The notes under the pieces: model-generated
The model's database searches: none
Seen by the model: the letters and a program-made list of their open reading frames with translations, nothing else
What the model was told of the DNA's origin: nothing
Shown: positions 15,913 to 44,473 of the stretch, in pieces
Position numbering within the stretch: the stretch's first letter is position 1
How the letters are laid out: every line of letters starts with the position of its first letter
Assembly: GCA_040752835.1 (NCBI GenBank)
Contig: JBFMGG010000004.1
Location: 95,032-159,031, forward strand
From: Campylobacterota bacterium
Lineage (GTDB): Bacteria; Campylobacterota; Campylobacteria; Campylobacterales; Sulfurimonadaceae
Direction of reading: 5' to 3'
DNA length: 64,000 nt
Made by a program: the position numbers and the translations under genes

Positions 15913-15925
15913 GGGTGTAAGGGAA

Positions 15926-17092: not shown

Positions 17093-17097
17093 AAACG

Positions 17098-17496
17098 TTA
17101 TCCCGCAATGACCTTGATCACGACTTCACGGGCCTGGCGGGGACCGTCGAATTCGCCGAAAAAGACCCCCTGCCATTTCCCGAACATGGGACGCCCTTCG
17201 TGAACGGGGATGCTGACCGATGCTCCCATGCGCGACGATTTGAGATGTGCCGCGGCATTGTCGCCGACGTGGGTGTAATGCTCATCGCTCGGGATCGTTT
17301 TGGACAACGCGGCAAGAAGGTCCCGGCGCAGGTTCGGATCGGCGTTTTCGAACAAAAAGACGCTTCCCGTCGTATGCGGGGTGAAGACGACGCAGATCCC
17401 CTCTTTGACTCCGGAAGTGATAACGGCTTCGCTCACCTCCTTACTGATGTCCATCAACTGTGTTTTGTGACTGGTCGGAAATTTGAGTATTTTCAT
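17098..17496 (-). CDS. YjbQ-family protein (UPF0047)
   Basis: A 132-residue single-domain protein of the YjbQ family. The characteristic segments are GICVVFTPHTTGSVFLFEN, a central DEHYTHVGDNAAAHLKSS and the late W/Q-G-FGEFDGPR. Family members have weak thiamine-phosphate synthase activity in vitro; the physiological role is unclear. The ATG overlaps the end of the pseudouridine synthase gene by 4 bases, so it is translationally coupled. Confidence 0.88.
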   Translation of the reverse strand: MKILKFPTSHKTQLMDISKEVSEAVITSGVKEGICVVFTPHTTGSVFLFENADPNLRRDLLAALSKTIPSDEHYTHVGDNAAAHLKSSRMGASVSIPVHEGRPMFGKWQGVFFGEFDGPRQAREVVIKVIAG

Positions 17497-25726: not shown

Positions 25727-25811
25727 GCGGACGTGGTGAAATTGGTAGACACGCCAGACTTAGGATCTGGTGCCTCACGGTGTGAAGGTTCAAGTCCTTT
25801 CGTCCGCACCA
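25727..25811 (+). tRNA. tRNA-Leu (TAG), island attachment site
   Basis: An 85-base class II tRNA. The acceptor GCGGACG pairs with CGTCCGC, the anticodon loop CTTAGGA gives TAG, there is a variable arm (GCCTCACGGTGT), and CCA is encoded. Its last 57 bases recur exactly at the right end of the island, so the island integrated here while keeping the tRNA intact. Confidence 0.95.
25755..25811 (+). repeat. attL core (57-bp repeat, 3' end of tRNA-Leu)
   Basis: From CAGACTTAGG in the anticodon stem-loop to the terminal CCA. Identical to 44417-44473; identity ends exactly at CCA on one side and within the anticodon stem on the other. Confidence 0.93.
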
Positions 25812-27011: not shown

Positions 27012-27478
27012 TTTGCAAATGGCCTGTTCGCTTAGAGTTACTTAAGTGCAATTGTTTTCGAATTTAGCATTAGAACCGTTGAGTAACAATTCCTATGATA
27101 TTCGTTCATTCGTTTATTTTAGATCAGTAGCAGAATTGAAACAACTCTTTTACTTAGATCCATTTCTCTTTTCTAAATCATATACATGATTCAGTTTGAT
27201 AACGTTATCAATACTTGTCTATACCCTCTAGAACATCAAATATCCATGAAGTTTTAAGACTCGATCCATATAGCATTTTCCAGTGAAGCTATTTATTTTC
27301 TATTGAATCTTCAATTGCCTCAAATTTTGAAGATTTATTGTGTTTAAATTCATCCCGATCCAAATTATATATTAGAATAGAAAAGAAAGCAAGTGTATTA
27401 TTTTATAAATAAAACATAAAATTTGACAACGCCAAAAAAAAGTTGTATTATTTTGCTGTAAAACAAAATGGAGCATAA
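27012..27478. other. Intergenic regulatory region before the hsd-CBASS operon
   Basis: No gene. It contains a perfect 16-bp palindrome TTGATAACGTTATCAA (27196-27211), a 9-bp inverted repeat AATCTTCAA/TTGAAGATT (27306-27314/27327-27335), and the operon promoter at its right end. The palindrome is a candidate operator for one of the island's HTH proteins. Confidence 0.55.
27423..27451 (+). promoter_or_regulatory. Sigma-70 promoter of the hsd-CBASS operon
   Basis: TTGACA (27423-27428), 17-base spacer, TATTAT (27446-27451), 28 bases upstream of the first ATG. CAAC and GTTG flank an A-tract in the spacer and could form a small operator. A GGAGC site precedes the ATG. No other clear promoter lies before the end of the eight-gene run. 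Confidence 0.8.
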
Positions 27479-28063
27479 ATGAAGGTTGGAAAAATTTCTG
27501 ACATTAGAATCGGTTTGCCTTTAGCTCGTAAAAAAGGTGATATTCATGATGATCAGTTTTTTAGATACAAAGCGGTCACATTAAAAGCTTTCTCTTCAAC
27601 GGGTCAGTTGCTTCATGATGAGCTCGACGAGTTCATTGCAAGCGAGGAATTGAGTGAAAGCTACATCACACAAGAAGGTGATATTTTGGTTCGATTGAGA
27701 GAACCGAATACGGCTGTCTATATTGATAAAGAAAGTAGCGGTTTGCTTGTTCCTGCATTAATGGCGATCATCAAACCAAAAAAGGAAATCAATAGTCGTT
27801 ATCTCACCCACTATATCAACTCAAATGAAGCACAAAAAAGACTTCACAAAGAGCTTCAAGGGACAACGATCCAAATGCTCAAAGCAAGTGAACTGGCTGA
27901 TTTAGACGTAACTTTACCACCCGAAGAGACTCAAGAAGAAATTGTTGCGATGCTGAATCTTGCCAATCGTGAGATCGAGCTACTTGATACTCTCAAATCA
28001 CTAAAAACGCAATTCAAAAATGAACTACTCGACACTATTTTAAAAAAGGAAATAAATCAATGA
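27479..28063 (+). CDS. Half-size HsdS-like specificity protein
   Basis: A 194-residue protein with one target-recognition-domain-like unit and one C-terminal coiled coil (from about residue 150: PPEETQEEIVAMLNLANREIELLDTLKSL). The motif LKASELADLDVTLPP is the HsdS-type end-of-domain signature. A full HsdS has two such units and lies two genes downstream, so this may be an alternative or regulatory specificity subunit. It is first in the operon; its stop overlaps the hsdM ATG (ATGA). Confidence 0.75.
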   Translation: MKVGKISDIRIGLPLARKKGDIHDDQFFRYKAVTLKAFSSTGQLLHDELDEFIASEELSESYITQEGDILVRLREPNTAVYIDKESSGLLVPALMAIIKPKKEINSRYLTHYINSNEAQKRLHKELQGTTIQMLKASELADLDVTLPPEETQEEIVAMLNLANREIELLDTLKSLKTQFKNELLDTILKKEINQ

Positions 28064-29550
28064 AAACAACAAAAGAAGTAATCAATAACGTAGTATGGAA
28101 AGCATGTGACACCTTTCGAGGGACAATGGATAGTTCACAATACAAAGACTACGTCCTCAGTATGCTATTCGTCAAATATCTATCGGACTTCTATAAAGAG
28201 AAACTTCAAACTCTTAATGACAAATACAATGGGGATGAAGATCGTGTACAAAGAGCACTCCAGAGAGAAAAATTCGTTCTCGATGAGAGCTGCACGTTTG
28301 AATATCTACTCAAACATAAAGAGGCAAATAATCTTGGTGAAGTTATCAATAAAGCCCTTGAAAAGATAGAAGAAGACAACCCTGAAAAACTCGAAGGGAT
28401 CTTTAGAAACGTTGATTTCAATGACAAAAAAGTTCTCGGCGATACCAAAGAGAGAAACAGTATCCTCAAACACCTTCTCGAAGATTTTAGCGATTCGCGA
28501 CTGGATTTGAGCCCGAGCAAACTCACTGGTCAAGACATCATTGGAGACAGCTATGAATATCTAATCGCTCACTTTGCTAGTGATGCAGGTAAAAAAGGTG
28601 GTGAGTTTTTTACTCCAAGCGAAGTCTCAACACTATTAGCAAAACTCGTAGAGCCAAAAGAGGGCGATCGAATCTACGATCCTACTTGTGGTTCTGGATC
28701 ATTGCTTATCAAGGCATCTAAAGAAGTCGGATCTGCAAACTTCGCTATTTACGGTCAAGAGAAAAATGGGCAAACGCACGCGCTTTGCCGGATGAATATG
28801 TATCTGCACGAGATTAACGATGCCAAGATCGAATGGGGGGATACCATCAGAAACCCTTTGCACGTCGAAGATGACAAGCTCATGAAGTTTGATGTGGTCG
28901 TTGCCAATCCACCGTTCAGTCTCGATAAATGGGGGGCAGATTTCGCTGAAAATGACCCTTATAGAAGATTTAGTGATTATGGCATACCACCAAAAAGCAA
29001 AGGCGATTACGCCTTTGTGACTCACATGATCAAAAGTCTCAATGAAAAAGGGAGAATGGGGGTTGTCCTCCCTCATGGTGTCTTATTTCGTGGTGCCAGT
29101 GAAGGAAGAATCCGAGAGAAACTGATCAATGAAAATTTACTCGATGCTGTCATCGGATTACCGGCGAATCTCTTCTTTGGTACTGGTATTCCAGCTACGA
29201 TCCTTATATTTAAAAAGAATAGAACTCAAAAAGATATTCTCTTTATCGATGCAAGTAAAGAAGAAGTTGATAAAGCTAAAAATCAAAATAATCTAACCGA
29301 AGAAAATATCCAAAAGATACTTGACACATACAGAAGTAGAAGTGAGATAGAAAAATATTCTCATGTGGCAACGATAGAAGAGATACAAGAAAACGACTAT
29401 AACCTCAATATTCCAAGATATGTCGATACATTTGAAGAGGAAGAACCGGTAGATATCGAGACTACAAAAGCAAGTATTGAAAAAGTGGAAAATGAATTAG
29501 CATCTATCAAAACTCAAATGAGTGCATATCTCAAAGAGTTGGGACTATAA
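28060..29550 (+). CDS. hsdM: Type I restriction-modification methyltransferase subunit
   Basis: A 496-residue N6-adenine methyltransferase. The N-terminal helical HsdM domain (SSQYKDYVLSMLFVKYLSDFY) is followed by the catalytic domain with SAM motif I in YDPTCGSGSLLIK and the catalytic NPPF (VVANPPFSL). With HsdS it methylates the recognition site; with HsdR it forms the restriction complex. The start overlaps the half-HsdS gene, and hsdS starts 1 base after its stop. Confidence 0.95.
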   Translation: MKTTKEVINNVVWKACDTFRGTMDSSQYKDYVLSMLFVKYLSDFYKEKLQTLNDKYNGDEDRVQRALQREKFVLDESCTFEYLLKHKEANNLGEVINKALEKIEEDNPEKLEGIFRNVDFNDKKVLGDTKERNSILKHLLEDFSDSRLDLSPSKLTGQDIIGDSYEYLIAHFASDAGKKGGEFFTPSEVSTLLAKLVEPKEGDRIYDPTCGSGSLLIKASKEVGSANFAIYGQEKNGQTHALCRMNMYLHEINDAKIEWGDTIRNPLHVEDDKLMKFDVVVANPPFSLDKWGADFAENDPYRRFSDYGIPPKSKGDYAFVTHMIKSLNEKGRMGVVLPHGVLFRGASEGRIREKLINENLLDAVIGLPANLFFGTGIPATILIFKKNRTQKDILFIDASKEEVDKAKNQNNLTEENIQKILDTYRSRSEIEKYSHVATIEEIQENDYNLNIPRYVDTFEEEEPVDIETTKASIEKVENELASIKTQMSAYLKELGL

Positions 29551-29551
29551 G

Positions 29552-30733
29552 ATGGAAACAATAGCTCCAAGTGGATATAAAAAGACCAAAGTTGGTGTTA
29601 TCCCAACGGATTGGAATTTGCACCGAATTGACGAAGTGTTAACAAGAGTACGAAAACCTCTTGAAGTAAAGCCTGACGAAAAGTATCAAGAAATAGGGAT
29701 TCGATCTCATGGGAAGGGACTTTTCTACAAAGATTTTACTACTATTGATGAGATAGGTGATAAATCAGTGTTTTGGGTTGAACCAGATTGCTTTATTGTT
29801 AATATCGTATTTGCATGGGAACAAGCCATAGGGAAAACTACTGAAAATGAAAAAGGTATGATTGCTTCTCATCGATTTCCGATGTATAAGCCTCAAAAGA
29901 ACATATTAGATCTTGATTATTTGGTTTACTTGTTTAAATCTAAACGCGGTAAGTATTTACTCGAACTCGCTTCACCGGGTGGGGCTGGACGGAATAAAAC
30001 ACTGGGGCAAGGTGAATTTGCAGAACTTCAAATTCCATTACCACCTTTTAGTGAACAAGAAAAAATAGCTCACATACTTACTACTTGGGATGAAGCCATC
30101 GTAAAACAAGAAGAGCTTATCAGAGAGAAAGAACAACTTAAAAAAGGGCTTATGCAAAAGCTACTAAGTGGTGAAATTCGTTTTGATGGGTTTTCAGATC
30201 CATGGAAATTTGTAAAACTTGGAGACTTACTGGACTATGAGCAACCAACACAATATTTAGTTAAAGATACTAATTATAATGACAGTTACGATACTCCTGT
30301 TCTGACAGCTGGTAAAACCTTCATACTTGGATATACAAATGAAAAAAGTGGAATTTATAAAAATAATTTACCTGTCATAATCTTCGATGATTTCACTACA
30401 GCAACACAATTTGTAGATTTTCCATTCAAAGCTAAATCATCAGCGATGAAAATTTTAAAGCCAAAAAACAACACTGTCAATATGAACTTGATTTATGAGT
30501 TTATTCAAATGATCAATTTCGTTGCTGATGATCACAAACGATATTGGATATCTGAATATCAAGAATTAGAAATTAAGTTGCCATCTGAAGAAGAGCAACG
30601 AAAAATAGCTGATATCTTAATCTTTGCAACCAAAGAAATCAGTCTTCTTAAAAATGAACTTGAAGAGCTAAAACAGCAGAAAAAAGGGCTAATGCAAAAG
30701 TTACTGACTGGTGAAGTGAGGGTAAAAATATGA
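29552..30733 (+). CDS. hsdS: Type I restriction-modification specificity subunit
   Basis: A 393-residue protein with two target recognition domains, each followed by a conserved helical spacer. The spacers end in near-identical KKGLMQKLLSGEIRF and KKGLMQKLLTGEVRV, giving the normal pseudo-symmetric HsdS. The near-repeat at DNA level (around 30140 and 30680) could support domain exchange by recombination. ATG 29552 is chosen because an upstream in-frame ATG lies inside hsdM. Its stop overlaps the phospholipase ATG. Confidence 0.92.
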   Translation: METIAPSGYKKTKVGVIPTDWNLHRIDEVLTRVRKPLEVKPDEKYQEIGIRSHGKGLFYKDFTTIDEIGDKSVFWVEPDCFIVNIVFAWEQAIGKTTENEKGMIASHRFPMYKPQKNILDLDYLVYLFKSKRGKYLLELASPGGAGRNKTLGQGEFAELQIPLPPFSEQEKIAHILTTWDEAIVKQEELIREKEQLKKGLMQKLLSGEIRFDGFSDPWKFVKLGDLLDYEQPTQYLVKDTNYNDSYDTPVLTAGKTFILGYTNEKSGIYKNNLPVIIFDDFTTATQFVDFPFKAKSSAMKILKPKNNTVNMNLIYEFIQMINFVADDHKRYWISEYQELEIKLPSEEEQRKIADILIFATKEISLLKNELEELKQQKKGLMQKLLTGEVRVKI

Positions 30734-31686
30734 GTAAAAAATTTAGAATTCTCTGTTTAGACGGCGGCGGTATTAGAGGACTATACTCTGCACAGCTTTT
30801 AAAAAGAATACAAGACGATTGCGGTGTGAATTTCTATAATGATTTTGATTTGATCGTTGGAACGTCTACCGGCTCAATTTTGGCTGGGTCTATTGTCAAA
30901 AAAATTGCTATTGATAAAGTAATTTCTCTATATGAGTATGAAGGCAAAAATATTTTTAAGAAGAGATGGTTGTCTAGAATTGGTTTGTTTGGCAGTAGAT
31001 ATAACCCTAATCCATTAAAAGAACAATTGAAAACGATTTTTGAAAATACGGTGTTTGGAGATATAGAGAAACCTCTTTTAATATGTGCTACTGACATTGG
31101 GAATTCAACACAATTCGTTTTTAAGACAACTTTCAATGGTCAAAATGATAGCAATGGGAATACCAAAGAGTTGGTTAGAGATAAAAAGATAGCTTTATAT
31201 GATGCTATTTTGGCTTCATCTTCAGCACCCATCTTTTTCCCTCCACATAAAATTGGCAATCATTTGCTTGCAGATGGAGGGCTTTGGGCAAACAGTCCTG
31301 TTCTAGTTGCATTGGCTGAGGCAAAAAAGATTTTTAAGGTTGAGCCTCAAGATGTTTCTATTGTCTCAATTGGAACAGGTGTAGAAGAAAATGATTATCA
31401 TATAAATACCAAATTCTGGGGGTTCTTAACTGGCTGGAAAAGAGAAAAACTTATTTCGATGATTTTAAATTTGCAGACTAAAACTAATAATAGTTTGCTG
31501 CAATTTTTAATGCCGAAAGAAAATATTTTACGTTTGACATATACAAGCGACAAAACTCTGCCTCTTGATGATATATCCCAGAATGAAAACTTGCTCAGTA
31601 AAGCAGATCATGACTTTACTTCTCGACACGCTGAAATTCAATCGTTTATAAATAAATACATAAAGGACAAAGATGTCGACCAATAA
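30730..31686 (+). CDS. Patatin-like phospholipase, CBASS effector (CapV-like)
   Basis: A 318-residue patatin. The oxyanion motif DGGGIRG is at 11-17, the nucleophile elbow GTSTG has Ser46, and the catalytic Asp is in DGGLWANSP (about 182). In CBASS, CapV phospholipases are switched on by cyclic dinucleotides and degrade the inner membrane to abort infection. The gene directly precedes a CD-NTase, overlapping it by 14 bases, and that pairing supports the CBASS role. It overlaps hsdS by 4 bases. Confidence 0.88.
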   Translation: MSKKFRILCLDGGGIRGLYSAQLLKRIQDDCGVNFYNDFDLIVGTSTGSILAGSIVKKIAIDKVISLYEYEGKNIFKKRWLSRIGLFGSRYNPNPLKEQLKTIFENTVFGDIEKPLLICATDIGNSTQFVFKTTFNGQNDSNGNTKELVRDKKIALYDAILASSSAPIFFPPHKIGNHLLADGGLWANSPVLVALAEAKKIFKVEPQDVSIVSIGTGVEENDYHINTKFWGFLTGWKREKLISMILNLQTKTNNSLLQFLMPKENILRLTYTSDKTLPLDDISQNENLLSKADHDFTSRHAEIQSFINKYIKDKDVDQ

Positions 31687-32851
31687 AGAACTATTTAAAA
31701 TTTTAGAAAAAGTCGGTGACTCTTTAGAGATCACCAAATCTCAATATAAATTAGCGGAAGAACGCTATAAAGCCGTAGGAAAATGGCTGGCTGAAGGCGA
31801 ATATTGTTTATTGGGTGATGGTAAAAAACAATGTTTTAAAGATGGTGAAATATACCCTCAGGGTTCGATTAGATTGGGAACGACTGTCAAACCCATCGGA
31901 AAAAATGAGTTCGATATTGATCTGGTTTTTTATACGCCAAATGTTTCGGCAGATATGATCAAGCCTGAACGTTTAAAGGAACTTATTGGTGATCGGCTTA
32001 AAGAACATGACACCTACAAAAAAATGCTCACCCCTTTAAATAGAGGCTGGTGTATTAATTATGCCAATGAATTCCATCTCGACATCACACCATCACTCGA
32101 TAATCATCACGAGCCATTCAATGAGAGTGAACTGGTAGCTGATGAAAAACTTGAACGCTATATGCCTACCAATCCCGAAGGATATGCGCAATGGTTCGAT
32201 AATATCTCATCAATAGAGCCGATATCAGAATTTACAAAAAATATGTTTGAATCAAGAAATACAATCCTTATGACTGAAGACGCAGCAACAGTCACTGAAT
32301 TGCCAGAACATGACTCAAACAAACCTCTTTTAAAAAGATATATTCAAATTTTTAAAAGACATAGAGACATGATGTTCGATGGTAGAGACGATGCGCCTAT
32401 TTCAATCATTATTACTACTCTAGCAACCAAATCCTATGAATATTGTATTCGACATTTCACGTATTACAATGAGTATAGCTTAATGATCGATACTTTGAAA
32501 AACATGCCTTTATTTATCGAAACAAGAAATACTTTACATTGGATAGAAAATCCTACAGTTACAGGTGAAAATTTTGCAGAAAAGTGGAATTACACTCCAA
32601 TAAAAAAACAAAATTTTGATTCATGGCACACGGAAATAGTAAAAATGTTTGAATCGATTAATAACCTCAAAGGTCAACATTTAATTTTTGAATCGCTCAA
32701 AAAAGGATTGGGAGAGTCCCCTGTCAATAAAGTTTACAACGACATGACACAAAAGGTTGATGACTATAGACAAAGAGGACTTTTAGGTGCTGGATTCGGA
32801 ACTCTATCTGATTCTCATCCGGTCAAAAAAAATACATTTTTTGGAAACTAA
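31673..32851 (+). CDS. CD-NTase (cGAS/DncV-like nucleotidyltransferase) of CBASS
   Basis: A 392-residue OAS/cGAS-fold enzyme. The signature is complete: PQGSIRLGTTVKPI (GS near 64-65), the metal-binding pair in EFDIDLVFY (about 81 and 83), and a third Asp in FHLDITPS (about 139). Such enzymes make cyclic oligonucleotides on phage infection. The product cannot be read from sequence; patatin effectors are most often paired with cGAMP-type dinucleotides. It lies between the effector and an E2-like gene. Confidence 0.88.
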   Translation: MSTNKELFKILEKVGDSLEITKSQYKLAEERYKAVGKWLAEGEYCLLGDGKKQCFKDGEIYPQGSIRLGTTVKPIGKNEFDIDLVFYTPNVSADMIKPERLKELIGDRLKEHDTYKKMLTPLNRGWCINYANEFHLDITPSLDNHHEPFNESELVADEKLERYMPTNPEGYAQWFDNISSIEPISEFTKNMFESRNTILMTEDAATVTELPEHDSNKPLLKRYIQIFKRHRDMMFDGRDDAPISIIITTLATKSYEYCIRHFTYYNEYSLMIDTLKNMPLFIETRNTLHWIENPTVTGENFAEKWNYTPIKKQNFDSWHTEIVKMFESINNLKGQHLIFESLKKGLGESPVNKVYNDMTQKVDDYRQRGLLGAGFGTLSDSHPVKKNTFFGN

Positions 32852-33451
32852 ATGTCATTTGCAAAAGGGGTCTCTAAGTACAAAACACTAAGTTTAGAAC
32901 AACAGTACTTTAATATAAAAAATTGTCCCCTGGCATCTAATGGAAGAGGAGAATTTTCACGTGACTATTTTTATTGGGAGTTTACTGCACAACCAACTCC
33001 TCTCAGTAAAACTTACCTCGTATTGCTCATTTTTCATATGGATAATTATTCACCTGATGTTTTTATACTGGATCAGGATGTTTGGGATATATCGAAAAAA
33101 AAATCTATTCCTCACCTCTACGATTCCAAAAGGGTCAAATTATGTCTATATTACCCAGCATACAAAGATTGGGATCAGACTATGCCATTAAATACGACAT
33201 TCGTGCCATGGACTTATTTGTGGCTGTATTATTATGAAGAATGGTTATTTTCATGTGAATGGAAAGGTGGAGGAGAACATCCATCGAGTAAAAATTCTGA
33301 AGAAAATGACAAAAAACAGGTAAGTATTTTCAATAAGTTTCGAAAACAAAAAGCAAAAAAAACGAATAAAGAAGATAAAGCTAAACAAATCATTCATTCC
33401 ATTTATGAACAACGCAGAAAAGCTTATATAGAACGCGAAGGAGTAGCATGA
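32852..33451 (+). CDS. E2-like protein of short type II CBASS
   Basis: A 199-residue protein directly after the CD-NTase stop. Residues of about 50-145 carry a prokaryotic E2-like fold pattern: VKLCLYYP with a candidate catalytic Cys98, then PWTYLWLYYYEEWLFSCEWKGGGEHP. This LCLYxP...W...GGGxHP pattern recurs in the stand-alone E2-like genes of short type II CBASS, where they conjugate or prime the CD-NTase without an E1 or JAB partner. The C-terminal 50 residues are lysine-rich. Its stop overlaps hsdR by 4 bases. Confidence 0.72.
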   Translation: MSFAKGVSKYKTLSLEQQYFNIKNCPLASNGRGEFSRDYFYWEFTAQPTPLSKTYLVLLIFHMDNYSPDVFILDQDVWDISKKKSIPHLYDSKRVKLCLYYPAYKDWDQTMPLNTTFVPWTYLWLYYYEEWLFSCEWKGGGEHPSSKNSEENDKKQVSIFNKFRKQKAKKTNKEDKAKQIIHSIYEQRRKAYIEREGVA

Positions 33452-36400
33452 AACAAGATATCTTTGCAGAGTTGACTCTTCAAAACAACACCATAGAGCT
33501 ATTAAAAAAGATGGGCTATACCTTTATCAGCCAAGAAGAGAATGTAAGAGTTCGCAATGGCAAGCTTGGAGAGGTGATACTCAAAGACATTCTCCTCGAA
33601 CAACTTCAAAAGATTAATAGCTTTGAATACAAAGGGGTAGAGTATACATTTTCCCCAAAAAATATCGCCAAAGCGATCGAAGAACTCAATGTTCCACTCA
33701 ATGAAGGTCTCATGAGTGCTAATCAAAAAATCAGTGACAAACTCATGCTCGGAACCAGTTATGACGAAGAGCTGATCGACGGTGTCAAAAAAAGCTTCTC
33801 TCTCCAATATATCGATTTCAAAAATCCTGAAAAAAATATCTTTCATATCACAGAAGAGTTCACTGTCAACCGTCAAATTACATCTGAAATTGAGAAGACT
33901 AGACGGCCTGACTTGGTACTTTTTATCAACGGTATCCCGTTTGCAGTGATCGAACTGAAAAAATCCAGTGTAGACGCGGAGCAAGGTATCTCTCAAATGA
34001 TCCGCAATCAAGGTAAAGATGAGATTCCGCATCTCTTCAAATACATTCAGCTCACTATCGCCGGAAACAACCACAGCCCTAAATATGCTACAGCAGGGAC
34101 ACCTAAAAAGTTCTATGCCGTATGGGAAGAGGAAGAATTCAAAAGTGAACCAAGCAACCTCATAGAAAATAGAACGGTGAGTGCGCTGGATAAAACTATT
34201 TTTGCACTCTTCAATAAAAAGCGTGTGATCGAAATTTTGCACTCTTATATCATCTTTGACAACAAAATCAAAAAAGTGGCGCGTTATCAGCAATTTTTTG
34301 CGATCAAAGAGATCGTCAAAAAGATCAATGTGTTTGATAATACCGGTAGACGTGACGGTGGGCTCGTATGGCATACGCAAGGAAGCGGGAAGTCACTCAC
34401 GATGGCAATGCTCACAAAAGTGATCAAACGCGATATCGTAGGTTCTAAAATCATTGTGGTCACAGATAGAACGGATTTGGATAGACAGATACACACGACG
34501 TTTGCCAATAGTGAAATAAAAGCGGGACGTGCCAGTAGTGGTCATGATCTGATCGAAAAACTACAATCAGGCATGAGTGTTATCACTACGCTGATTCATA
34601 AATTTGAGACGGTTGAAAAAGAAAAAATCGTTTTGGATGATCCTAACATCTTTGTGCTCGTCGATGAATCACACCGAACCCAAGGCGGTGATCTGCATAA
34701 GTCGATGAAAAAAGTGTTTGATAACGGATGCTATCTCGGGTTTACAGGTACACCACTGCTCAAACGTGAAAAAAGTTCTATCGCGAAATTTGGGGGGTTG
34801 ATTCATAAATACACGATTGATCAAGCAGTACGAGACAACGCCGTTTTACCTCTACTTTATGAGGGTAGATTGGTCGATCAGTGGGTGAATGATCAAAACG
34901 GACTGGATCGACGGTTTGAGATGATTTCTCGTGACTTGAATGATGAACAAAAAATGGATTTAAAAAGAAAATGGGCGAGATTTCAGCGAATCGCTTCGAG
35001 TGAACGGCGTCTGGAGATGATCGCGCTTGATATCAATGAGCATTTCATCAAAAATGTACAGGGAACAGGGTTCAAAGCGATGTTAGCTACCAGTAGTAAA
35101 TACGAAGCGATCAAATATCACTCTATTTTTGAAGAATTTGGCAATATCAAAACCTCATTTGTCATTTCCGCTCCAGATACGAGAGAGGGGCATGACGAAG
35201 TCGATGAGAGCAATAAACAATTCGTTATCGAAGCGTGGAATAAACTCATTAGAAAATATGGCGACGAAGAGCGTTTTCTCGAAAAAATCAAAGACGAATT
35301 TATCGAAGGTGATGAGATCGAATTGCTGATTGTAGTTGATAAACTCCTGACCGGGTTTGACGCACCAAGAGCGGCGATACTCTATATAGACAAAGAGCTC
35401 AAAGAACATAATCTCTTGCAAGCAATCGCACGTGTTAACCGTCTTTATGATGGAAAAGATTTCGGATTTATTGTTGATTATCGAGGGCTTCTGGGTAACC
35501 TTGACCAAGCTCTAACTTCATACAGCTCACTTGATGGCTTCGAAGAAGAAGATCTTCTGGGTGCTGTTATCGATATCAAAGAAGAAGTGGCGAGAGTAAA
35601 AACGTTTTATTCTCATCTCAAAGAGCTTTTTGACCCCGTCGACAATAAAAACGATCAAGAGAGTTATGAAGTTTTCTTGGGTGATGAAGAGAAAAGAAAA
35701 GAGTTTTATGAGCTCCTATCATCCTACGCAAGAGCACTCAAGCTCGCCCTCTCTAGTGACAAAATTACCGAAGTATTCACCAAAGTAGAGATAGAAGAGT
35801 ACAAAAGAGCTATGAAGTTTTACAGCGAACTTCGTAAAAGCGTCAAAATTCGCTATCACGAAGAGGTGGACTTCGGTAAATATGAAAAGCAGATGCAAAA
35901 GCTTCTGGATACATTTATCAGTGCCGAAGAGGTGAATCAACTCACTAAGCTCGTTAATATATTCGAAGCAGATTTTGAAAAAGAGCTGGATCGTGTGGTT
36001 GGGGATAATGCGAGAGCTGATACCATCATCAGTGCCAGTACTAAAGTGATTTCTGAGCGACGAGAGCAAAATCCGGCGTATTACGACAAACTCTCTAAGC
36101 GGATTCAAGAGATTTTGGATGAGTATAAAGAGGGGCGTCTTAGCGATGAAGATAAACTCAAACATGCGAAAGATATTCGTTCACTATTGATGCAAAAAAA
36201 TAGTGACGATCTTGACGAATACCCAGAACAAATCAAACATAATGCTATGGCACGATCGTTTTATGATAACCTACAAGCGTATATGAAAGAGATACCATCG
36301 GAAACGTTTGTAGAAGTGGTACTCAAGGTAGATTCTATTTTCAAAGAAGCATCCAAAAAACCCGATTGGGAAAATAATAACGATGTTAAAAATACTATTG

Positions 36401-36522
36401 ATCAAGAGATTGACGATTTACTTTGGGAGCTTGAAAGTACCCATAAAATTAAATTCGCCGACTTAGATGAGATCATCGCTCAAGTTCGTTCCATCGGCAT
36501 CAACAACTATGCAAAGAGATAA
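33448..36522 (+). CDS. hsdR: Type I restriction enzyme endonuclease/translocase subunit
   Basis: A 1024-residue HsdR. The N-terminal nuclease motif is in RRPDLVLFINGIPFAVIELKKSS (Asp...Glu-x-Lys, about residues 152-172). The SF2 helicase follows, with GSGKSLTMAML, VDESHRTQGG and LLTGFDAPRAAILY. The long helical C-terminal part contacts HsdM/HsdS. The length is normal. It is separated from hsdS by the three CBASS genes yet joined to them by overlapping stop/start codons. Confidence 0.95.
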   Translation: MKQDIFAELTLQNNTIELLKKMGYTFISQEENVRVRNGKLGEVILKDILLEQLQKINSFEYKGVEYTFSPKNIAKAIEELNVPLNEGLMSANQKISDKLMLGTSYDEELIDGVKKSFSLQYIDFKNPEKNIFHITEEFTVNRQITSEIEKTRRPDLVLFINGIPFAVIELKKSSVDAEQGISQMIRNQGKDEIPHLFKYIQLTIAGNNHSPKYATAGTPKKFYAVWEEEEFKSEPSNLIENRTVSALDKTIFALFNKKRVIEILHSYIIFDNKIKKVARYQQFFAIKEIVKKINVFDNTGRRDGGLVWHTQGSGKSLTMAMLTKVIKRDIVGSKIIVVTDRTDLDRQIHTTFANSEIKAGRASSGHDLIEKLQSGMSVITTLIHKFETVEKEKIVLDDPNIFVLVDESHRTQGGDLHKSMKKVFDNGCYLGFTGTPLLKREKSSIAKFGGLIHKYTIDQAVRDNAVLPLLYEGRLVDQWVNDQNGLDRRFEMISRDLNDEQKMDLKRKWARFQRIASSERRLEMIALDINEHFIKNVQGTGFKAMLATSSKYEAIKYHSIFEEFGNIKTSFVISAPDTREGHDEVDESNKQFVIEAWNKLIRKYGDEERFLEKIKDEFIEGDEIELLIVVDKLLTGFDAPRAAILYIDKELKEHNLLQAIARVNRLYDGKDFGFIVDYRGLLGNLDQALTSYSSLDGFEEEDLLGAVIDIKEEVARVKTFYSHLKELFDPVDNKNDQESYEVFLGDEEKRKEFYELLSSYARALKLALSSDKITEVFTKVEIEEYKRAMKFYSELRKSVKIRYHEEVDFGKYEKQMQKLLDTFISAEEVNQLTKLVNIFEADFEKELDRVVGDNARADTIISASTKVISERREQNPAYYDKLSKRIQEILDEYKEGRLSDEDKLKHAKDIRSLLMQKNSDDLDEYPEQIKHNAMARSFYDNLQAYMKEIPSETFVEVVLKVDSIFKEASKKPDWENNNDVKNTIDQEIDDLLWELESTHKIKFADLDEIIAQVRSIGINNYAKR

Positions 36523-37168
36523 CATCACCATTGTTTACAAGGATATCAAACACGCCAATCTAAAGGTCAAACCAAATCAAGAAGTATTGCTAACAGTGCC
36601 TCTTGATATGACGGATGGGGAAATTGAACATATCCTTGTAAAAAGAGCCAATTGGGTCAATCAGCAGCTCAAACTTTTTCAAAAAAACACGCAACCAAAA
36701 AAAGAGCTAGTGAGCGGTGAAAGCTTTTTGTATCTTGGTAAGAATTATCGCCTAAAGGTGATCGAATCAAACGAAGAAAAAGCTCGACTGAATCGTGGAT
36801 ATTTTGAACTCTTTGTTAAAGACAAACATGACTATAGCAGAAAAGAAAAGCTCATCAATGATTGGTATAAATCTAGGGCTATGGAGTATTTTCAAAAAAA
36901 TATTGACAAATATAACGCTATCGTCAAACTAGAGATCAAAGCGGTTCGAATTAGATCCATGAAAACACGCTGGGGATCGTGTAACCCTAAAAAATCCTAT
37001 ATCAATCTAAATCTTGAACTCATCAAAAAACCAAAAAGCTCAATTGAGTATGTCATTTTTCATGAATTGGTTCATTTGATCCATAATGATCATAGTAAAA
37101 ACTTCTACAATCATCTGAGTTTGCATATGCCTGATTGGCAGAAAAGAAAGGCAAACCTCGAACGATAA
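36509..37168 (+). CDS. SprT/YgjP-type zinc metallopeptidase
   Basis: A 219-residue WLM/YgjP (DUF45) protein. The zinc motif is HELVHLIH (near residue 184), preceded by RWGSCNPKKSYINLN, the family hallmark. Homologues often end type I RM operons; their substrate is not established. The start at 36509 overlaps the end of hsdR by 14 bases. It is the last gene of the operon; a hairpin follows. Confidence 0.88.
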   Translation: MQRDNITIVYKDIKHANLKVKPNQEVLLTVPLDMTDGEIEHILVKRANWVNQQLKLFQKNTQPKKELVSGESFLYLGKNYRLKVIESNEEKARLNRGYFELFVKDKHDYSRKEKLINDWYKSRAMEYFQKNIDKYNAIVKLEIKAVRIRSMKTRWGSCNPKKSYINLNLELIKKPKSSIEYVIFHELVHLIHNDHSKNFYNHLSLHMPDWQKRKANLER

Positions 37169-37641: not shown

Positions 37642-38324
37642 ATAATCAGCCCTTCAATAATTATTCGAATTCAGGACAAAACAACAACGATTACCAGCGT
37701 CAGCGACAACTTGATGCTGATCGCCAAAAACAGACTTATAAAATGGCAGCAGAACAGGCTTTGGATCACATTGCTAGAGATTATCAAAACGCTCAAGCGA
37801 ACAATCTGAAGAACTGGAAGCTTGATCCATCGGACAAAGCAGCTGTTATACGCTATTATAAACGGTACTGGGATTCGCAGTTCATATCTATTTCTATCTC
37901 AATTTTGATCCTAACATTTCTTGTATCGTTTTATACGAAATGGGCTGTTTTTGGTATTTTTGCAGTCTTCATATTTCGTATAAGATTCTCCCAGCCGGTA
38001 TTTTTGAGGTATCTACTGAATGATCATGAACTAACCGGCAAGCAAATCACCGAAATCAAGGACAAAATCTTTTACAAACAGCTTGAAACCAGTATGACCG
38101 CACTCTTAACGGCTATTTTGATATTGGTAAGCTATAGCAGCTTATTGTTTTCAAAGAGTATCTATCTTGCTAAAGATATGAGTTTTGACGAGATCCAAAA
38201 ATTGGTCTCAATTCTCTCGAAGCCATCTCCATTTTATCTGGAAAATGAGCTTTTTGCATACTTCAATGTGGCTTCTATTCTCGTGTTGATGCTATTGAAA
38301 ATCTATGAGAAATGGAGCAAGTGA
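37638..38324 (+). CDS. Membrane protein of the coupling-ATPase module
   Basis: A 228-residue protein. The N-terminus (1-30) is asparagine/glutamine-rich. Two hydrophobic helices at about 80-118 and two more at about 150-172 and 205-223 predict four TM segments. I recognise no family. Its stop overlaps the start of the VirD4/TraG-like ATPase (TGATG). That ATPase has no TM of its own, so this protein is a candidate membrane anchor supplied as a separate chain. Confidence 0.6.
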   Translation: MNNQPFNNYSNSGQNNNDYQRQRQLDADRQKQTYKMAAEQALDHIARDYQNAQANNLKNWKLDPSDKAAVIRYYKRYWDSQFISISISILILTFLVSFYTKWAVFGIFAVFIFRIRFSQPVFLRYLLNDHELTGKQITEIKDKIFYKQLETSMTALLTAILILVSYSSLLFSKSIYLAKDMSFDEIQKLVSILSKPSPFYLENELFAYFNVASILVLMLLKIYEKWSK

Positions 38325-39862
38325 TGTTTTTTAAAACTCCAGCTAGAGAAAAAAATACTACCCAAAACAATGTGTACGCGCAACAAAGCGCGTATGGGCG
38401 AGGCATCACCTCTATTCAATCTGCCAAAGATGAATTGTACCGTCAGCCAAAACGTTTTAATCCGCTGCAATACCTCGAAAAAAACCGATATTTTTTGGGA
38501 TTAAATCATCTTAATGGTCAACCGACATATAACTATGAATCGATTCATACCCAAATCGTTGCACCTACTCGCTCTGGAAAGGGTGTTTTCATCGGGATCA
38601 AAGCCGTTGAAGCATTACGTGAATATCGTGGTTTGATTGTCATTGACCCTAAAGAAGATGATTTTCTCCCTCAAGTCATACTTGAAGAGCTTGATCGACA
38701 GAATCGCACCGCTGATTTTCAAATACTAAATTGGCCAAATGATTTTGGCTATACCGTATTTTCACCTACTGATACAATCGAAGAAGCGACCAAAAAGATG
38801 ACGATCATGCTCAATTTGATAGAAAACGATACCGAATTAGGGGCAAGTCATTATCGAAAAAGCGAGCGCATATTACTCTCAAAAATAATGCACATCTTTT
38901 TCAATGTCGAAAAGCTTTTAAGCATTAAAATAGACCGTTCACTGGCTGGCTTGTCGCAGTTTTTAAAATACGTCATTGCTGATTTAAATGCTGCTAGTGA
39001 ATTTGTCAAAGAACAGGAAAAAAGCAAGCCAAATTTTGACAAGCTCGAAAAGCTTTCAAAACGGTATTTCGATCCAGAACTATTTATAAAAATGGATCTG
39101 AAGCCTTCACAGATGGCGATATTGGAGTCGTTGCAGTTTTCCATTTCCGAGTTTGATAATGTCACTATCTACGATAAATATCATCTTGCAGATGCTCTGA
39201 CAAAAGGTAAAGTACTCTATATCAAAAGCGACATGCTGGATGAAACAGCACTCAAGTTTTTGAAACTTGTCATCACAGATATCATTCAGCAGTCTAAAAA
39301 AATGAAGAGTCAAACGAATTGCTTGGTAATACTGGATGAGCTTTCATTCTATCCGACACAGATTTTATCGGCTGGGCTCGCCACGGCAGCAGGATTTGGA
39401 GTTAAATTTATCTTGTCATATCAAAGTGAAGCACAAATGCGTGATGAGAGCTTGCGTGTCGCCATCAAAGACAACTGCCAAACGAAGATTTATTATAAAA
39501 CATCCGATGATAAAACGCTCAAATACATCGAACTTTTAAGCGGCTTGGAATTGGTTTCACAAGTGACAAAAAAGGGGCATGAAACAACTATCAGACAGAT
39601 GCAAGAGGAGCACATGAACATCACACGTCTTCGTGCGTTGCCTCGCTCAACCGTGGCGATCTTGATTGAAGAGAATCTCAATGAAATGAAGATTTTTCAA
39701 ACATCACCAATACCTGTACGGCAAAAGTTCGACTGGACACAACTCAATGCGAAACAAGTACAAATTCCAAAATTTGAACTCAAAAAAGCATTTGCAGTTG
39801 AGCTTGTTTCGGTGGATACGATTGAACTATCCGCAACTACTTCTAAAGAGCTGGTTTTATAG
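38324..39862 (+). CDS. Type IV coupling protein-like ATPase (VirD4/TraG family), TM-less
   Basis: A 512-residue hexameric-type DNA translocase. Walker A is APTRSGKG (about residue 85) and Walker B is CLVILDELSFYP. The TraG/VirD4 C-terminal pattern DNCQTKIYYKTSDDKT and RLRALPRSTVAIL is present. Family members link relaxosomes to a T4SS and normally begin with two TM helices; none is present here. ATG 38324 has GGAG upstream and overlaps the membrane-protein stop. No T4SS channel genes accompany it. Confidence 0.82.
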   Translation: MFFKTPAREKNTTQNNVYAQQSAYGRGITSIQSAKDELYRQPKRFNPLQYLEKNRYFLGLNHLNGQPTYNYESIHTQIVAPTRSGKGVFIGIKAVEALREYRGLIVIDPKEDDFLPQVILEELDRQNRTADFQILNWPNDFGYTVFSPTDTIEEATKKMTIMLNLIENDTELGASHYRKSERILLSKIMHIFFNVEKLLSIKIDRSLAGLSQFLKYVIADLNAASEFVKEQEKSKPNFDKLEKLSKRYFDPELFIKMDLKPSQMAILESLQFSISEFDNVTIYDKYHLADALTKGKVLYIKSDMLDETALKFLKLVITDIIQQSKKMKSQTNCLVILDELSFYPTQILSAGLATAAGFGVKFILSYQSEAQMRDESLRVAIKDNCQTKIYYKTSDDKTLKYIELLSGLELVSQVTKKGHETTIRQMQEEHMNITRLRALPRSTVAILIEENLNEMKIFQTSPIPVRQKFDWTQLNAKQVQIPKFELKKAFAVELVSVDTIELSATTSKELVL

Positions 39863-41266: not shown

Positions 41267-42298
41267 ATGGAAAAGAAATATAAAGAACTTTTAAATACTG
41301 TAAAAGATGAATTTGATTTGTCTATATCATTTGGACAAGCGAGTCAAGAAGTCAAATTGCCTCCTATAATAAGAATGGAATATGATATAGAGTTAATTAA
41401 AATAGAATTTATTGAATTTGCCTTAATCACTCCAAAACATCAAGAGCCAGATTCAATAAAGCGGATAAATATGATACAGGAAAGGTACAATAAGCCTCTT
41501 TTATACCTAAGTGAAAACATAGCCTCACCTCTTAAAAGACAGTTTCTTGATTCTCACATATCATTCGTATCTAAAAATATGATATACCTATATCCTCTTT
41601 TGCTGATTCAAAAAGATAGAGGTGAATTTGTTCAAAACAAAAATATAAAAAATATAAATATATCTATGCAACCTTTAATGCTTTATCTCCTATACAATCA
41701 TAGATATGATGATCATTTTAGTGTTGAAAAAATTCATTCAGAGTTTAAACAAAGTATTCCAACAATATATAGATATATCCAAGTTTTAGAAGATTTATCT
41801 TTAATAAAAGTAGAAAAGGATGGAAGAAATAAATTTTTTAAACTAAATCAAGAGATGTCTTTTGAGAAGATGATAGAACTATTGCGTTCACCTGTCAAAG
41901 AAACAGTTTTTATAAAGCATGAAGACTTTCAAAGGATAAATAAAAATCATCAATATTGTATAGCTGGTGAAAGCGCACTTAGTCAATATAATCTAGCCGT
42001 AAGTCAACAAAGCTATGCAGTTTTTTACAATGATACAAAAGGAAGGGAATGGGATAAAGTGAATTATTCTTCTCGTTATTATGATGAATACGATGAAATA
42101 CAAAAGTGGCATTATGATCCAAAAAGTATCAACAAAATGATAAAAGATTCGTATATGTATTACCAAGATAGTGTTGATCCAATATCACTATATTTAAGCC
42201 TTAGAGATATTGATATTGATATTGATATTAGACTTACAGATGCAATAGAGGAATTATTTGAAGAGATTAAAAGGTTATATGGATGGCAAACGATATAG
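41267..42298 (+). CDS. AbiEi-like transcriptional regulator/antitoxin
   Basis: A 343-residue protein. The middle (about 140-200) holds a winged HTH: SVEKIHSEFKQSIPTIYRYIQVLEDLSLIKVEKDG. The C-terminal part includes the AGESALSQYNLA segment resembling the AbiEi C-terminal domain. The N-terminal 130 residues are not recognised and are longer than in classic AbiEi. A 16-base overlap with a DxD nucleotidyltransferase gene and the operator array support a type IV AbiE-like toxin-antitoxin unit. The HTH placement differs from the standard N-terminal one, so the family is tentative. Confidence 0.6.
   Translation: MEKKYKELLNTVKDEFDLSISFGQASQEVKLPPIIRMEYDIELIKIEFIEFALITPKHQEPDSIKRINMIQERYNKPLLYLSENIASPLKRQFLDSHISFVSKNMIYLYPLLLIQKDRGEFVQNKNIKNINISMQPLMLYLLYNHRYDDHFSVEKIHSEFKQSIPTIYRYIQVLEDLSLIKVEKDGRNKFFKLNQEMSFEKMIELLRSPVKETVFIKHEDFQRINKNHQYCIAGESALSQYNLAVSQQSYAVFYNDTKGREWDKVNYSSRYYDEYDEIQKWHYDPKSINKMIKDSYMYYQDSVDPISLYLSLRDIDIDIDIRLTDAIEELFEEIKRLYGWQTI
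42206..42229 (+). repeat. Four tandem GATATT hexamers inside the AbiEi-like gene
   Basis: Four exact copies encode alternating Asp-Ile near the C-terminus (about residues 314-321). The hexamer unit keeps frame on slippage, so only length would vary. Confidence 0.8.
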
Positions 42299-43008
42299 TA
42301 CAAGGATTATCCCATTTTTCAGATTTTTTTACGGATTACAAGGATGATTACATAGTTATTGGTGGTGTGGCAACTGCTTTACATTTGAAAAGATATGGTG
42401 CTACATCAATCAGGGCCACTTTGGATATTGATTTAATAGTCCTAGATGATCAAAAAAATAGTACTTTTGTAGATAGAATGGTTGAATATGTAAAAACAGT
42501 AAGCTATCAGCACTGTGGTATATATAAAGAAGAAACGAGGATATTATATCAATTTAAAGATCCTGTCATTAAAGACGCACCAGAGCAAATAGAACTATTT
42601 ACTATTGATGAAATAAAAGATGAGAAATTAACCTTTATACGGCTGGAGGGGAGTGAATACTATTTTTATATTAGTGCAATAGTTCTGAATAGTGATTACA
42701 GAGAACTCATTGATCAGTTTAAGCTAGATCATCATAATTTATCAATAGCAGCTCCTGAAGTTTTAATACCATTAAAAGCATTAGCATATGTAAATCTTGG
42801 AAAAGAAGGCACAAAAAGAGCTTTGAGAGAACAGAAAAAACATCTTGATGATATCAAAAGACTAATAGAATATGTCGAGGAAGAAAAAATTGAAGTAAGT
42901 GAGAAAATTTATAATGATCTTACCACGGTTTTAGGGGAAGTAAAAAAAATTAGAGGTAGAGAAGAGTTAGCTGATAACGCTTTAAAGGTATATGTTAAAA
43001 AAGCGTAA
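42283..43008 (+). CDS. AbiEii-like nucleotidyltransferase toxin
   Basis: A 241-residue nucleotidyltransferase. The core motif is VIGGVATALHLKRYG, followed by TLDIDLIV (the DxD metal pair), typical of AbiEii/DUF1814-type toxins, which modify tRNA or nucleotides. The C-terminal half is helical and charged. It starts inside the upstream gene, so the two are coupled. The promoter array in front of the pair fits an autoregulated TA operon. Confidence 0.72.
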   Translation: MANDIVQGLSHFSDFFTDYKDDYIVIGGVATALHLKRYGATSIRATLDIDLIVLDDQKNSTFVDRMVEYVKTVSYQHCGIYKEETRILYQFKDPVIKDAPEQIELFTIDEIKDEKLTFIRLEGSEYYFYISAIVLNSDYRELIDQFKLDHHNLSIAAPEVLIPLKALAYVNLGKEGTKRALREQKKHLDDIKRLIEYVEEEKIEVSEKIYNDLTTVLGEVKKIRGREELADNALKVYVKKA

Positions 43009-43022
43009 AATTTACGGCTCTT

Positions 43023-44168
43023 CTAAAACAAAGCTTTCGTGATATTGTGTCTGATGTTAGGAATTAAATGTGCGTAACGCATTGTCATATCAATATTTTT
43101 ATGACCTAATTGCTCTTTTATCTGTAATATATCAAGCCCTGCTTCTGCAAGCCAACTCGCATGGGTATGACGAAGTGAGTGGGCAGTAATTTTATATTTA
43201 GTATCCAGAGCGTTATTACCTGGAATAACACTTTCTACCGCCGTTGCAAAATAATCCGGCATTCTCAAAATTATCCCTCCGTCACTATTATTGATGACAT
43301 TTTCATTTACTCTGTTTTCATAAAGGTCATTAATCGTTTCGCGAAGGGTTTCATTCATTGCGATATGGCGCTCATTGCCATTTTTTGTCTTTTTGAAAAA
43401 AATCGTATTGTTAGCAAAATTGACATCAGCCCATTTCAATCGAGTATCGATACCCGTTTTGTTTTTCTGAGATGAGGCACCTGTAATTTCACTAAACCGT
43501 GCACCGGTAAAAAGGAGTAGTACCATCAAATGATACGTCAAAGGGTGTGTAGATTCCAAAATCTCTAAAATTTTTCTAGCCTGTTCTTTCGTTAAATACC
43601 CTTGTCGTTTATTATCAATTTCTGGCATTTTGACTTTGCCGGCACTCATAGGATTGGTAAAGTTTTTGAGTATATCATGTTTGATCGCGTAATTGATGAT
43701 CGTTCGGATGAGTGTTAATTGATGCTTGATTGTTTGCGATTCCAAACCCTTTTCTATCAGTTCTTGCTTGAATTTCTCAAAATCTAATGAAGCTAGATCC
43801 TTGACATTTTTTTGTCCAAAAATAGGCCTGATGTGTTTTTTATAATTCCGTTCATCCATGAGATAGGATTTTTTATTTGCCTTTGCATAACTGTAAAACT
43901 CTTCCCAAATAGCCTCAAATTTTAGTTTCGAAGTTCGACCAGCTTTGATAGTTGGCTCTTCATCATGCTGAAGCTTATACTTCATTTCGATCAATTTAGC
44001 ATAAGCATCTTTTACGGTAAAATCAGAAATTTTCGTTTTTTTACCTACAAGTACTTTAACTGGCTTGCCTTGATCATCACGATAATTGATGTAATAGGAG
44101 ATATCGCCATTCTTTAGCTCGTTGATCCAAACGCCTTCATATTTTCCACCAACTGGCTTCAGTCCCAT
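43023..44168 (-). CDS. Tyrosine site-specific recombinase (island integrase)
   Basis: A 381-residue phage-type integrase. The N-terminal arm/core-binding part is followed by the catalytic domain with TGARFSEI (Arg I), HSLRHTHASWLAEAG (HxxR) and LGHKNIDMTMRYAHL (Tyr nucleophile). ATG 44168 is preferred over an upstream TTG because GGAG lies 9 bases before it. It reads away from the right attachment repeat 250 bases off, which places it as the island's own integrase. Confidence 0.93.
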   Translation of the reverse strand: MGLKPVGGKYEGVWINELKNGDISYYINYRDDQGKPVKVLVGKKTKISDFTVKDAYAKLIEMKYKLQHDEEPTIKAGRTSKLKFEAIWEEFYSYAKANKKSYLMDERNYKKHIRPIFGQKNVKDLASLDFEKFKQELIEKGLESQTIKHQLTLIRTIINYAIKHDILKNFTNPMSAGKVKMPEIDNKRQGYLTKEQARKILEILESTHPLTYHLMVLLLFTGARFSEITGASSQKNKTGIDTRLKWADVNFANNTIFFKKTKNGNERHIAMNETLRETINDLYENRVNENVINNSDGGIILRMPDYFATAVESVIPGNNALDTKYKITAHSLRHTHASWLAEAGLDILQIKEQLGHKNIDMTMRYAHLIPNIRHNITKALF

Positions 44169-44268
44169 TTTATAACTCTCCAATTTAACGACAAAACTGC
44201 TTTTTATATATAATTCGTCGTTTTTTTATTGAAAAAGTATAACAAAGTTTTCGTAATAAGAAGTGATT

Positions 44269-44416: not shown

Positions 44417-44473
44417 CAGACTTAGGATCTGGTGCCTCACGGTGTGAAGGTTCAAGTCCTTTCGTCCGCACCA
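44417..44473 (+). repeat. attR core (57-bp copy of tRNA-Leu 3' end)
   Basis: Exact copy of 25755-25811. It lacks the 5' half of the tRNA, so it is not a tRNA gene. Confidence 0.93.

Follow-up and report, generated by a model that had tools for sequence, protein, structure and literature searches.

A predicted CBASS within a type I restriction-modification operon

We analyzed a 64,000-nucleotide stretch of a Campylobacterota genome (the window), and in particular an operon at 27,479 to 37,168 that encodes a type I restriction-modification (RM) system together with a putative cyclic-oligonucleotide-based antiphage signaling system (CBASS). An initial annotation of the window listed eight genes here: a half-HsdS, HsdM, HsdS, a CapV-like patatin, a CD-NTase, an E2-like protein, HsdR, and a SprT-type peptidase. 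Pfam and PADLOC bear out their coordinates, order, and identities (Table 1), except for the last name: SprT-like is a secondary match (2e-7), and YgjP-like (PF01863, 4e-62) is the better description. The junctions had been described as overlaps of 0 to 16 bases or a one-base gap, and this holds: they are, in order, -4, +1, -4, -14, 0, -4, and -14 bases (with ATG starts at 29552 for HsdS and 36509 for the peptidase). Active-site motifs, chosen from general knowledge of the families, are present in HsdM, HsdR, CapV, the CD-NTase, the E2-like protein, and the peptidase. All three subunits of the type I RM system (M, S, and R) retain their motifs, and by gene order and packing these belong to one operon.

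CapV contains the catalytic motifs GTSTG, DGG, and GGGIRG, and its relatives in PDB are patatins (including 9kh7 and 8zr9), several of which are named as CBASS phospholipases. Its family and motifs fit a cyclic-nucleotide-activated effector, with the activation itself only predicted. In the CD-NTase, the genome's sole SMODS match, G64-S65, D81-x-D83, and D137 are invariant across seven aligned sequences. NTFFG-type C-terminal tails are common among its relatives that occur with an E2. A Pfam scan gave no match for the E2-like protein. Its Cys98 lies within the motif LCLY (residues 97-100), which is found in 36 of 39 E2 rows (near-duplicates counted). The closest solved relatives of the CD-NTase and the E2 are two chains of one entry: SmCdnG (8hsb_A, 1e-59) and E2 (8hsb_B, 2e-18).

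Among the eight operon proteins, PADLOC named no E1 or JAB protein and no PrrC-family anticodon nuclease (the best 25 families were considered for HsdM and for both HsdS proteins). Because the CD-NTase and E2 occur without an E1 or JAB gene, we predict that the trio is a short type II CBASS inside a complete type I RM operon. Its compact placement between hsdS and hsdR, in the same direction, is as first annotated. In comparisons with two related genomes (G080 and G067, see below), the ratio of nonsynonymous to synonymous divergence is 0.05-0.13 for CapV, CD-NTase, and E2, as under purifying selection.

Table 1. Features of the operon and of the integrative element that carries it (positions in the window)
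Feature	Position	Strand	Evidence
tRNA-Leu(tag)	25727-25811		
attL-type repeat, 3' end of tRNA-Leu(tag)	25755..25811	+	perfect 57-bp direct repeat with 44417-44473
Best promoter-like site, TTGACA-17-TATTAT	27423..27451	+	consensus scan, 11/12; 27 bases before first start codon
Half-HsdS, 194 aa, one target-recognition domain	27479..28063	+	Pfam PF01420 3e-11
HsdM methyltransferase, 496 aa	28060..29550	+	Pfam PF02384 2e-117, HsdM_N; DPTCGSG and NPPF motifs
HsdS, 393 aa from ATG 29552 (403 from GTG 29522)	29552..30733	+	PF01420 2e-23, two stretches = two specificity domains
CapV-like patatin phospholipase, 318 aa, predicted CBASS effector, slot B cargo	30730..31686	+	PF01734 4e-30; PADLOC CBASS phospholipase PDLC00758 2e-84
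CD-NTase, 392 aa, C-terminus NTFFGN	31673..32851	+	SMODS 2e-11; PADLOC cyclase PDLC00780 1e-109
E2-like protein, 199 aa	32852..33451	+	PADLOC E2 PDLC00864 3e-44
HsdR, 1024 aa	33448..36522	+	PF18766 2e-76 (SWI2/SNF2), PF04313 5e-36 (HSDR_N); GSGKS, DESH, PD...ELK
YgjP-like zinc metallopeptidase	36509..37168, longest ORF from 36467	+	PF01863 4e-62; HELVH motif
Type IV coupling-type ATPase, element mobility gene	38312..39862	+	PF02534, PF12696
Phage-type (tyrosine) integrase of element, near far end	43023..44183	-	PF00589 2.6e-23
attR-type repeat	44417..44473	+	perfect 57-bp copy of tRNA-Leu 3' end

The gene order recurs in other genomes

A search with the CD-NTase across 151 genomes of the family found seven with a match, three of them at 92% identity or more (G000, which is the window's genome, G080, and G067). 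Extending the search to 397 genomes of the class gave eight with a match and added G323, at 80%. In G080, G067, and G323, the trio again lies after hsdS and before hsdR. G080 and G067 belong to the window's genus (we take G067 to be Sulfuricurvum sp. STB_144), and we take G323 to be Aliarcobacter cryaerophilus LMG 9065. Between E2 and hsdR, G067 has one additional gene (AlbA/HATPase) and G323 has two (for a 1208-aa protein and AlbA). The initial annotation had reasoned that, if this order were absent from every other genome, it would be a chance insertion. The order does recur, which rules out a chance insertion unique to the window's genome.

Across 84,980 species genomes, we found 132 relatives of the CD-NTase, and the best of them were retained as 79 loci. 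Five of the 79 have hsd genes on the same strand around or before the CD-NTase. The other 74 are not inside hsd genes, as judged from flanks of up to 10 kb with models of this hsd family, which could miss distant hsd families. In Sutcliffiella horikoshii (L210), an S(short)-M-S-R operon has no cargo and the CBASS is merely its neighbor. None of the three relatives on viral contigs is nested in hsd genes; one of them (L022) adjoins hsd genes on the opposite strand. On plasmids, 128 records have a relative, and none of the three that we inspected is nested.

Two loci with incomplete surroundings are also worth describing. At L127:3163-7812, HsdM, HsdS, CapV, and a 500-aa CD-NTase are followed by a protein with cytidine-deaminase and HATPase_c_4 domains. 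In a Sulfurovum metagenome-assembled genome (MAG), L088:2893-5982 has CapV and a CD-NTase that is 63% identical to ours, with no hsd genes upstream; the contig ends inside the CD-NTase. No close HsdM was found in this genome (the best match has E = 1.5e-5), and hsd genes may lie beyond the contig end. By eye, we suspected that a divergently transcribed 301-aa protein beside it was a WYL/CapW-type regulator. Pfam gave no match, and we do not claim this.

A conserved scaffold with two cargo slots

We then compared the hsd operons themselves. We call the position between HsdM and HsdS slot A and the position between HsdS and HsdR slot B. An HsdR search of 397 Campylobacteria genomes found 58 matches in 55 genomes, and an HsdM search of 345 Bacteroidota genomes found a match in 31. 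We considered a locus resolved if M, S, and R were found with no reverse-strand open reading frame (ORF) of over 150 aa inside. This was the case for 29 of 36 loci that we read from Campylobacteria and 23 of 30 from Bacteroidota.

The sampled loci of both groups keep the same arrangement, half-HsdS/HsdM/[slot A]/HsdS/[slot B]/HsdR/YgjP. The half-HsdS precedes HsdM in 26/29 Campylobacteria and 21/23 Bacteroidota loci, and YgjP follows HsdR in 26/29 and 20/23. (The annotation of Sutcliffiella horikoshii L210 likewise places a short subunit S ahead of HsdM.) If any same-strand ORF of at least 70 aa counts as occupying a slot (some short ones may be spurious), then slot B is occupied in 26/29 and 21/23 loci, and empty in 3/29 and 2/23. 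The initial annotation took hsdS and hsdR to be neighbors as a rule; here, they are usually apart. Slot A is empty in 14/29 Campylobacteria and 5/23 Bacteroidota loci. (What occupies slot A in L072 and L075 is a fragment of a split HsdS.)

In this one hsd family, then, changing ORFs lie both between hsdS and hsdR and between hsdM and hsdS. Pfam and PADLOC identify the cargo as RhuM (PDC-S05), Abi_2, BRO-N, Fic, RloC-like AAA_13 (PDC-S06), PtuA-like AAA, HAD-domain PDC-S34, PDC-S42, DUF3800, AlbA/HATPase, and trypsin-like proteins; much of this cargo is defense-related, and several have no match at all. These assignments come mostly from one representative per cluster, and the Bacteroidota labels come from profiles built on these clusters rather than from Pfam, except for the CBASS parts, which were checked. 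Of the 49 occupied loci, 46 have a tight junction of hsdS with the cargo (from -60 to +30 bases). (The 49 include L010 and L124, which are outside the counts of 29 and 23.) Where the slot is empty in L060, hsdS and hsdR overlap by four bases. An odd case is L057, with no HsdS called, in which a 2057-aa ORF (11095-17268, oriented to HsdR) holds most of HsdR and a long fused extra part.

CBASS is a repeated cargo

CBASS genes occupy a slot in 4/29 resolved Campylobacteria loci (window included) and 4/23 resolved Bacteroidota loci. In Campylobacteria, CapV-CdnT-E2 is found in the window, L011, and L019 (and in L010, outside the sample), and a SMODS/AGS_C cyclase with SLATT 2TM effectors is found in L058 (and in L059, which is cut by a contig end). 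In Bacteroidota, L178 has CapV-CdnT-E2 between S and R, with a cyclase from another PADLOC family (PDLC00774); L179 and L124 have SAVED-CdnT-E2; L182 has SAVED-CdnT; and L193 has an AGS cyclase with 2TM. The SAVED types are in slot A (L124, L179, and L182; in L144 and L207 they are behind HsdM, with no HsdS seen), and the CapV and 2TM types are in slot B, although the numbers are small for both.

CD-NTases are concentrated inside the operons: across the resolved loci, there are eight CD-NTase ORFs between hsdM and hsdR (227 kb) and one outside (566 kb). The contrast has P = 3e-4, or 1.5e-3 without the window, in a test for which the loci are not fully independent and the models were partly built from nested examples, which favors the inside. 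We also mapped nesting onto quick phylogenetic trees, on which changes of label do not separate gain from loss. On a tree of 62 CD-NTases, the nested label needs six changes, at least four of them forced by well-supported branches; L178 is on a very long branch. On a tree of 55 HsdM proteins, the CBASS label needs eight changes (at least six forced), as compared to an average of 10.3 for shuffled labels, so CBASS is only mildly clustered on the HsdM tree.

Cassettes are exchanged at gene boundaries

Some scaffolds that closely resemble each other differ in their cargo, which is unrelated, and the edges of the difference fall at gene boundaries; we therefore conclude that cassettes are exchanged. 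At the DNA level, L019, L058, and L063 share 87-95% identity across their scaffold blocks. If the target-recognition parts of hsdS are set aside, the match extends to the end of hsdS, disappears over the cargo, and returns no more than about 10 bases from the start of an AlbA gene that precedes hsdR. The cargo is CapV-CdnT-E2 and the 1208-aa protein in L019; an AGS cyclase and SLATT in L058; and trypsin-like, 77-aa, and 685-aa proteins in L063. L019 also combines a cassette like the window's with an HsdM of another lineage, and its CD-NTase groups with the window's.

Synonymous divergence (dS) between the window and G080 tells a similar story. It is 0.026 for CapV, 0.160 for the CD-NTase, and 0.666 for E2, as compared to 0.834 for both HsdM and HsdR, 0.573 for the half-HsdS, and 0.331 for YgjP. 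Between about 30.8 and 32.1 kb, identity along the operon rises sharply to 97-100%. The hsdS gene has been replaced (38% identity). The contrast in dS and the three scaffolds above rule out that the cargo was inherited strictly with the hsd genes.

The operon is on an integrative element

The operon sits on a GC-poor, 18.7-kb integrative element in tRNA-Leu, bounded by a perfect 57-bp repeat. Close relatives of its integrase are found in three other genomes of the genus (4/41 including the window's own), and none of those three has a match to the CD-NTase. Conversely, the close integrase is absent from both of the same-genus genomes with nested CBASS. Because the integrase occurs without this CD-NTase, and nested CBASS without the close integrase, the operon and its vehicle look separable.

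The elements in these sibling genomes (L215, L216, and L217, with integrases 84-88% identical to the window's) carry other HsdM/HsdS-like genes. The one in L217 has a different hsd operon, with five ORFs between its HsdS-like and HsdR-like genes. Within the window's element, the gene pair at 41267-43008 resembles an AbiEi/AbiEii-type toxin-antitoxin by eye (the second gene is nucleotidyltransferase-like), with no support from Pfam.

Comparison to known embedded genes

That defense genes can be nested in RM operons, as the initial annotation stated, is known. The anticodon nuclease gene prrC lies between hsdS and hsdR. It is embedded in the type I operon prrABD, and its product is sequestered by the enzyme and then released upon T4 infection (PMC3874165; PMC3874168). 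EcoprrI/PrrC resembles the window's operon in that type I genes enclose a gene for suicide, but PrrC is a single nuclease silenced by RM, whereas here we find a predicted three-gene signaling system with its own sensor. In Campylobacter jejuni, rlo genes lie between hsdR and hsdS and mlo genes between hsdS and hsdM (PMC5183652, citing Miller 2005), and a paper on RloC describes rlo genes as inserts in type I loci of this species (PMC2610378). These loci are from the same phylum and have the same two insertion positions, changing cargo, and RloC-type ATPases, but no CBASS is named in the portions of PMC5183652 and PMC2610378 that we consulted. Beyond these, we describe CBASS, the edges of exchange, and a half-HsdS/YgjP scaffold that also occurs in other phyla.

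The RptR-RMS-DarTG2-M48 island of E. coli E2348/69 likewise has an abortive system, DarTG2, between hsdS and hsdR, and a metallopeptidase downstream of hsdR; in the words of its authors, this is a "potential recombination hotspot" (PMC12255303). It differs in that DarTG2 is not CBASS, the RptR repressor comes first, and no half-HsdS is described in the portion consulted. The PDC families of PADLOC are "guilt-by-embedding" candidates (PMC12988326), and four of them (PDC-S05, RhuM; PDC-S06, RloC-like; PDC-S34; and PDC-S42) are in the same slots. The short CBASS of SmCdnG and E2 (PDB:8hsb) resembles the window's by having the nearest solved structures for the CD-NTase and E2.

The embedding of genes in type I operons has precedents, then; what we add is CBASS as a repeated cargo and direct evidence for swapping. 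Searches on CBASS with RM or nesting, and on embedding, found no paper, in the text seen, that names CBASS between hsdS and hsdR; Payne 2024 and Miller 2005 were outside their scope, and we do not claim that the arrangement is unpublished. The "guilt-by-embedding" candidates reportedly go back to a 2024 preprint by Payne, which may already list CBASS among the embedded systems.

A proposed chassis for exchangeable defense cargo

We propose that this widespread type I RM scaffold is a chassis for exchangeable defense cargo, and that slot B of the window holds an SmCdnG-like short type II CBASS. We give this about a three in four chance of being correct. The promoter at 27423 would drive a single mRNA, and overlapping stop and start codons would couple translation across the HsdS-CapV and E2-HsdR junctions. 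The RM enzyme would cut incoming DNA that is unmodified. Should a phage escape it, then, going by the chemistry of related CBASS, the E2-primed CD-NTase would sense the infection and make a cyclic nucleotide; CapV would then degrade the membrane, and the cell would die before phage are released. Restriction would come first and suicide later because of the known actions of the two systems, and it is plausible that abortive infection is a backup to restriction, as initially suggested. Cassettes would be replaced by recombination in the flanking genes, and the whole operon would travel on integrative elements.

Several observations weigh against this proposal. First, transcription may not be as simple as a single undisturbed mRNA. 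The operon region has 14 terminator-like sites, as compared to 5.8 (standard deviation 2.7) in shuffled sequences, and a few of these are on the + strand inside hsdM, CapV, and E2. The site at 27423 had been described as the sole clear promoter. It is the best site on the + strand (11/12), but the total of 40 promoter-like sites is no excess over the 33.3 (standard deviation 5.6) in shuffles. Because promoter-like sites are no more numerous than in shuffles, there may also be internal promoters. Second, only 3 of the 79 CD-NTase loci have hsd genes on both sides (G067, G323, and the Saprospirales MAG L124). Another two have them upstream only: the Thermoanaerobaculia MAG L127, on a 10-kb contig with no HsdR seen, and the Pyramidobacter MAG L144, whose contig ends after the CD-NTase. 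Third, three of the four Campylobacteria CBASS cases are one cassette lineage. Fourth, the edge near hsdR is less regular. Only 35 of the 49 loci have a tight junction of the cargo with hsdR; the right-hand edge of exchange in L019, L058, and L063 is the AlbA gene rather than hsdR; and, in L063, a Fic gene separates AlbA from hsdR. Finally, the samples are partial. The 36 HsdR matches that we read (33 fetched, plus the window, L011, and L019) are from a total of 58; the other 22 are G264, which has stops, and 21 that are shorter or more distant. From the 31 HsdM matches, we read 30 and left out the center, G497, which had been found via nested CBASS.

A more ambitious version of the proposal seems doubtful to us. 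The half-HsdS/HsdM/HsdS/HsdR/YgjP scaffold would be a dedicated, multi-phylum chassis that swaps whole defense cassettes at two fixed sites and that captured CBASS several times independently (SAVED only in slot A, CapV or 2TM only in slot B). The RM enzyme would give the cargo a common functional input beyond the shared promoter, such as expression, position-dependent stoichiometry, or licensing when restriction fails.

The nesting could instead reflect a dedicated interaction, in which CBASS is gated, physically or functionally, by the RM enzyme much as PrrC is: silenced by the complex, or triggered by a phage anti-restriction protein or by restriction products. Besides the precedent of PrrC itself, the fact that two families of CD-NTase occur in a CapV-CdnT-E2 trio between hsdS and hsdR would fit such a guard. 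But these slots accept a wide range of unrelated cargo that shares no domain, which is hard to fit with specific contacts, and CD-NTase relatives with E2 are also found outside hsd genes in Campylobacterota (L012, L020, and L021). CBASS also has its own sensing. Furthermore, RloC of Acinetobacter baylyi is unlinked to hsd and acts independently of RM rather than being silenced by it (PMC3874168). We consider a guard unlikely.

Alternatively, the cargo might be retained by addiction to RM: losing the methyltransferase side would be costly, and the benefit would be inheritance rather than layered defense. The cargo changes and yet slot B is seldom empty, and the operon is on an integrative element, both as this would predict. 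However, type I RM systems are only weakly addictive, as restriction is controlled after translation, and we think this explanation improbable. We consider it very unlikely that this is ordinary clustering in defense islands, with the CBASS landing by chance and its position meaning only a free promoter: the 74 loci outside hsd genes and the neighboring genes in Sutcliffiella are as expected from clustering, but the recurrence in separate lineages, the sharp edges of the cassettes, and the contrast between inside and outside are not.

Nested CBASS is real, recurrent, and more general than was first proposed. The findings indicate that a restriction operon can be a socket for whole signaling defense systems, and the CapV-CD-NTase-E2 order recurs between hsdS and hsdR with two families of CD-NTase. 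Because similar operons exist with CBASS, without it, and with other cargo, the functional layering of restriction and abortive infection becomes testable. And because several slot cargos have no known domain, the slots are a practical route to new defense genes.

DruE-like helicases upstream of nested loci

Directly upstream of the half-HsdS, three of the four close nested-CBASS loci encode a helicase of 1624-1628 aa (L010:503-8924; L011 16536-20000 and 11669-16543, on the - strand; and L019:106-4992; coordinates include the upstream protein where present). The helicase in L010 matches DruE models, and the copies in L011 and L019 cluster with it. In L010 and L011, an uncharacterized protein of the 1184-aa type precedes the helicase. 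We considered Druantia type III for these three relatives, but the 1184-aa partner has no match in PADLOC or Pfam, and we claim only that the helicases are DruE-like. The operon in these loci may therefore hold three defense systems. Along with the 1184-aa protein (L010:503-4057), the 1208-aa protein (L019:12379-16005), which has no Pfam or PADLOC match either, is a candidate new defense protein.

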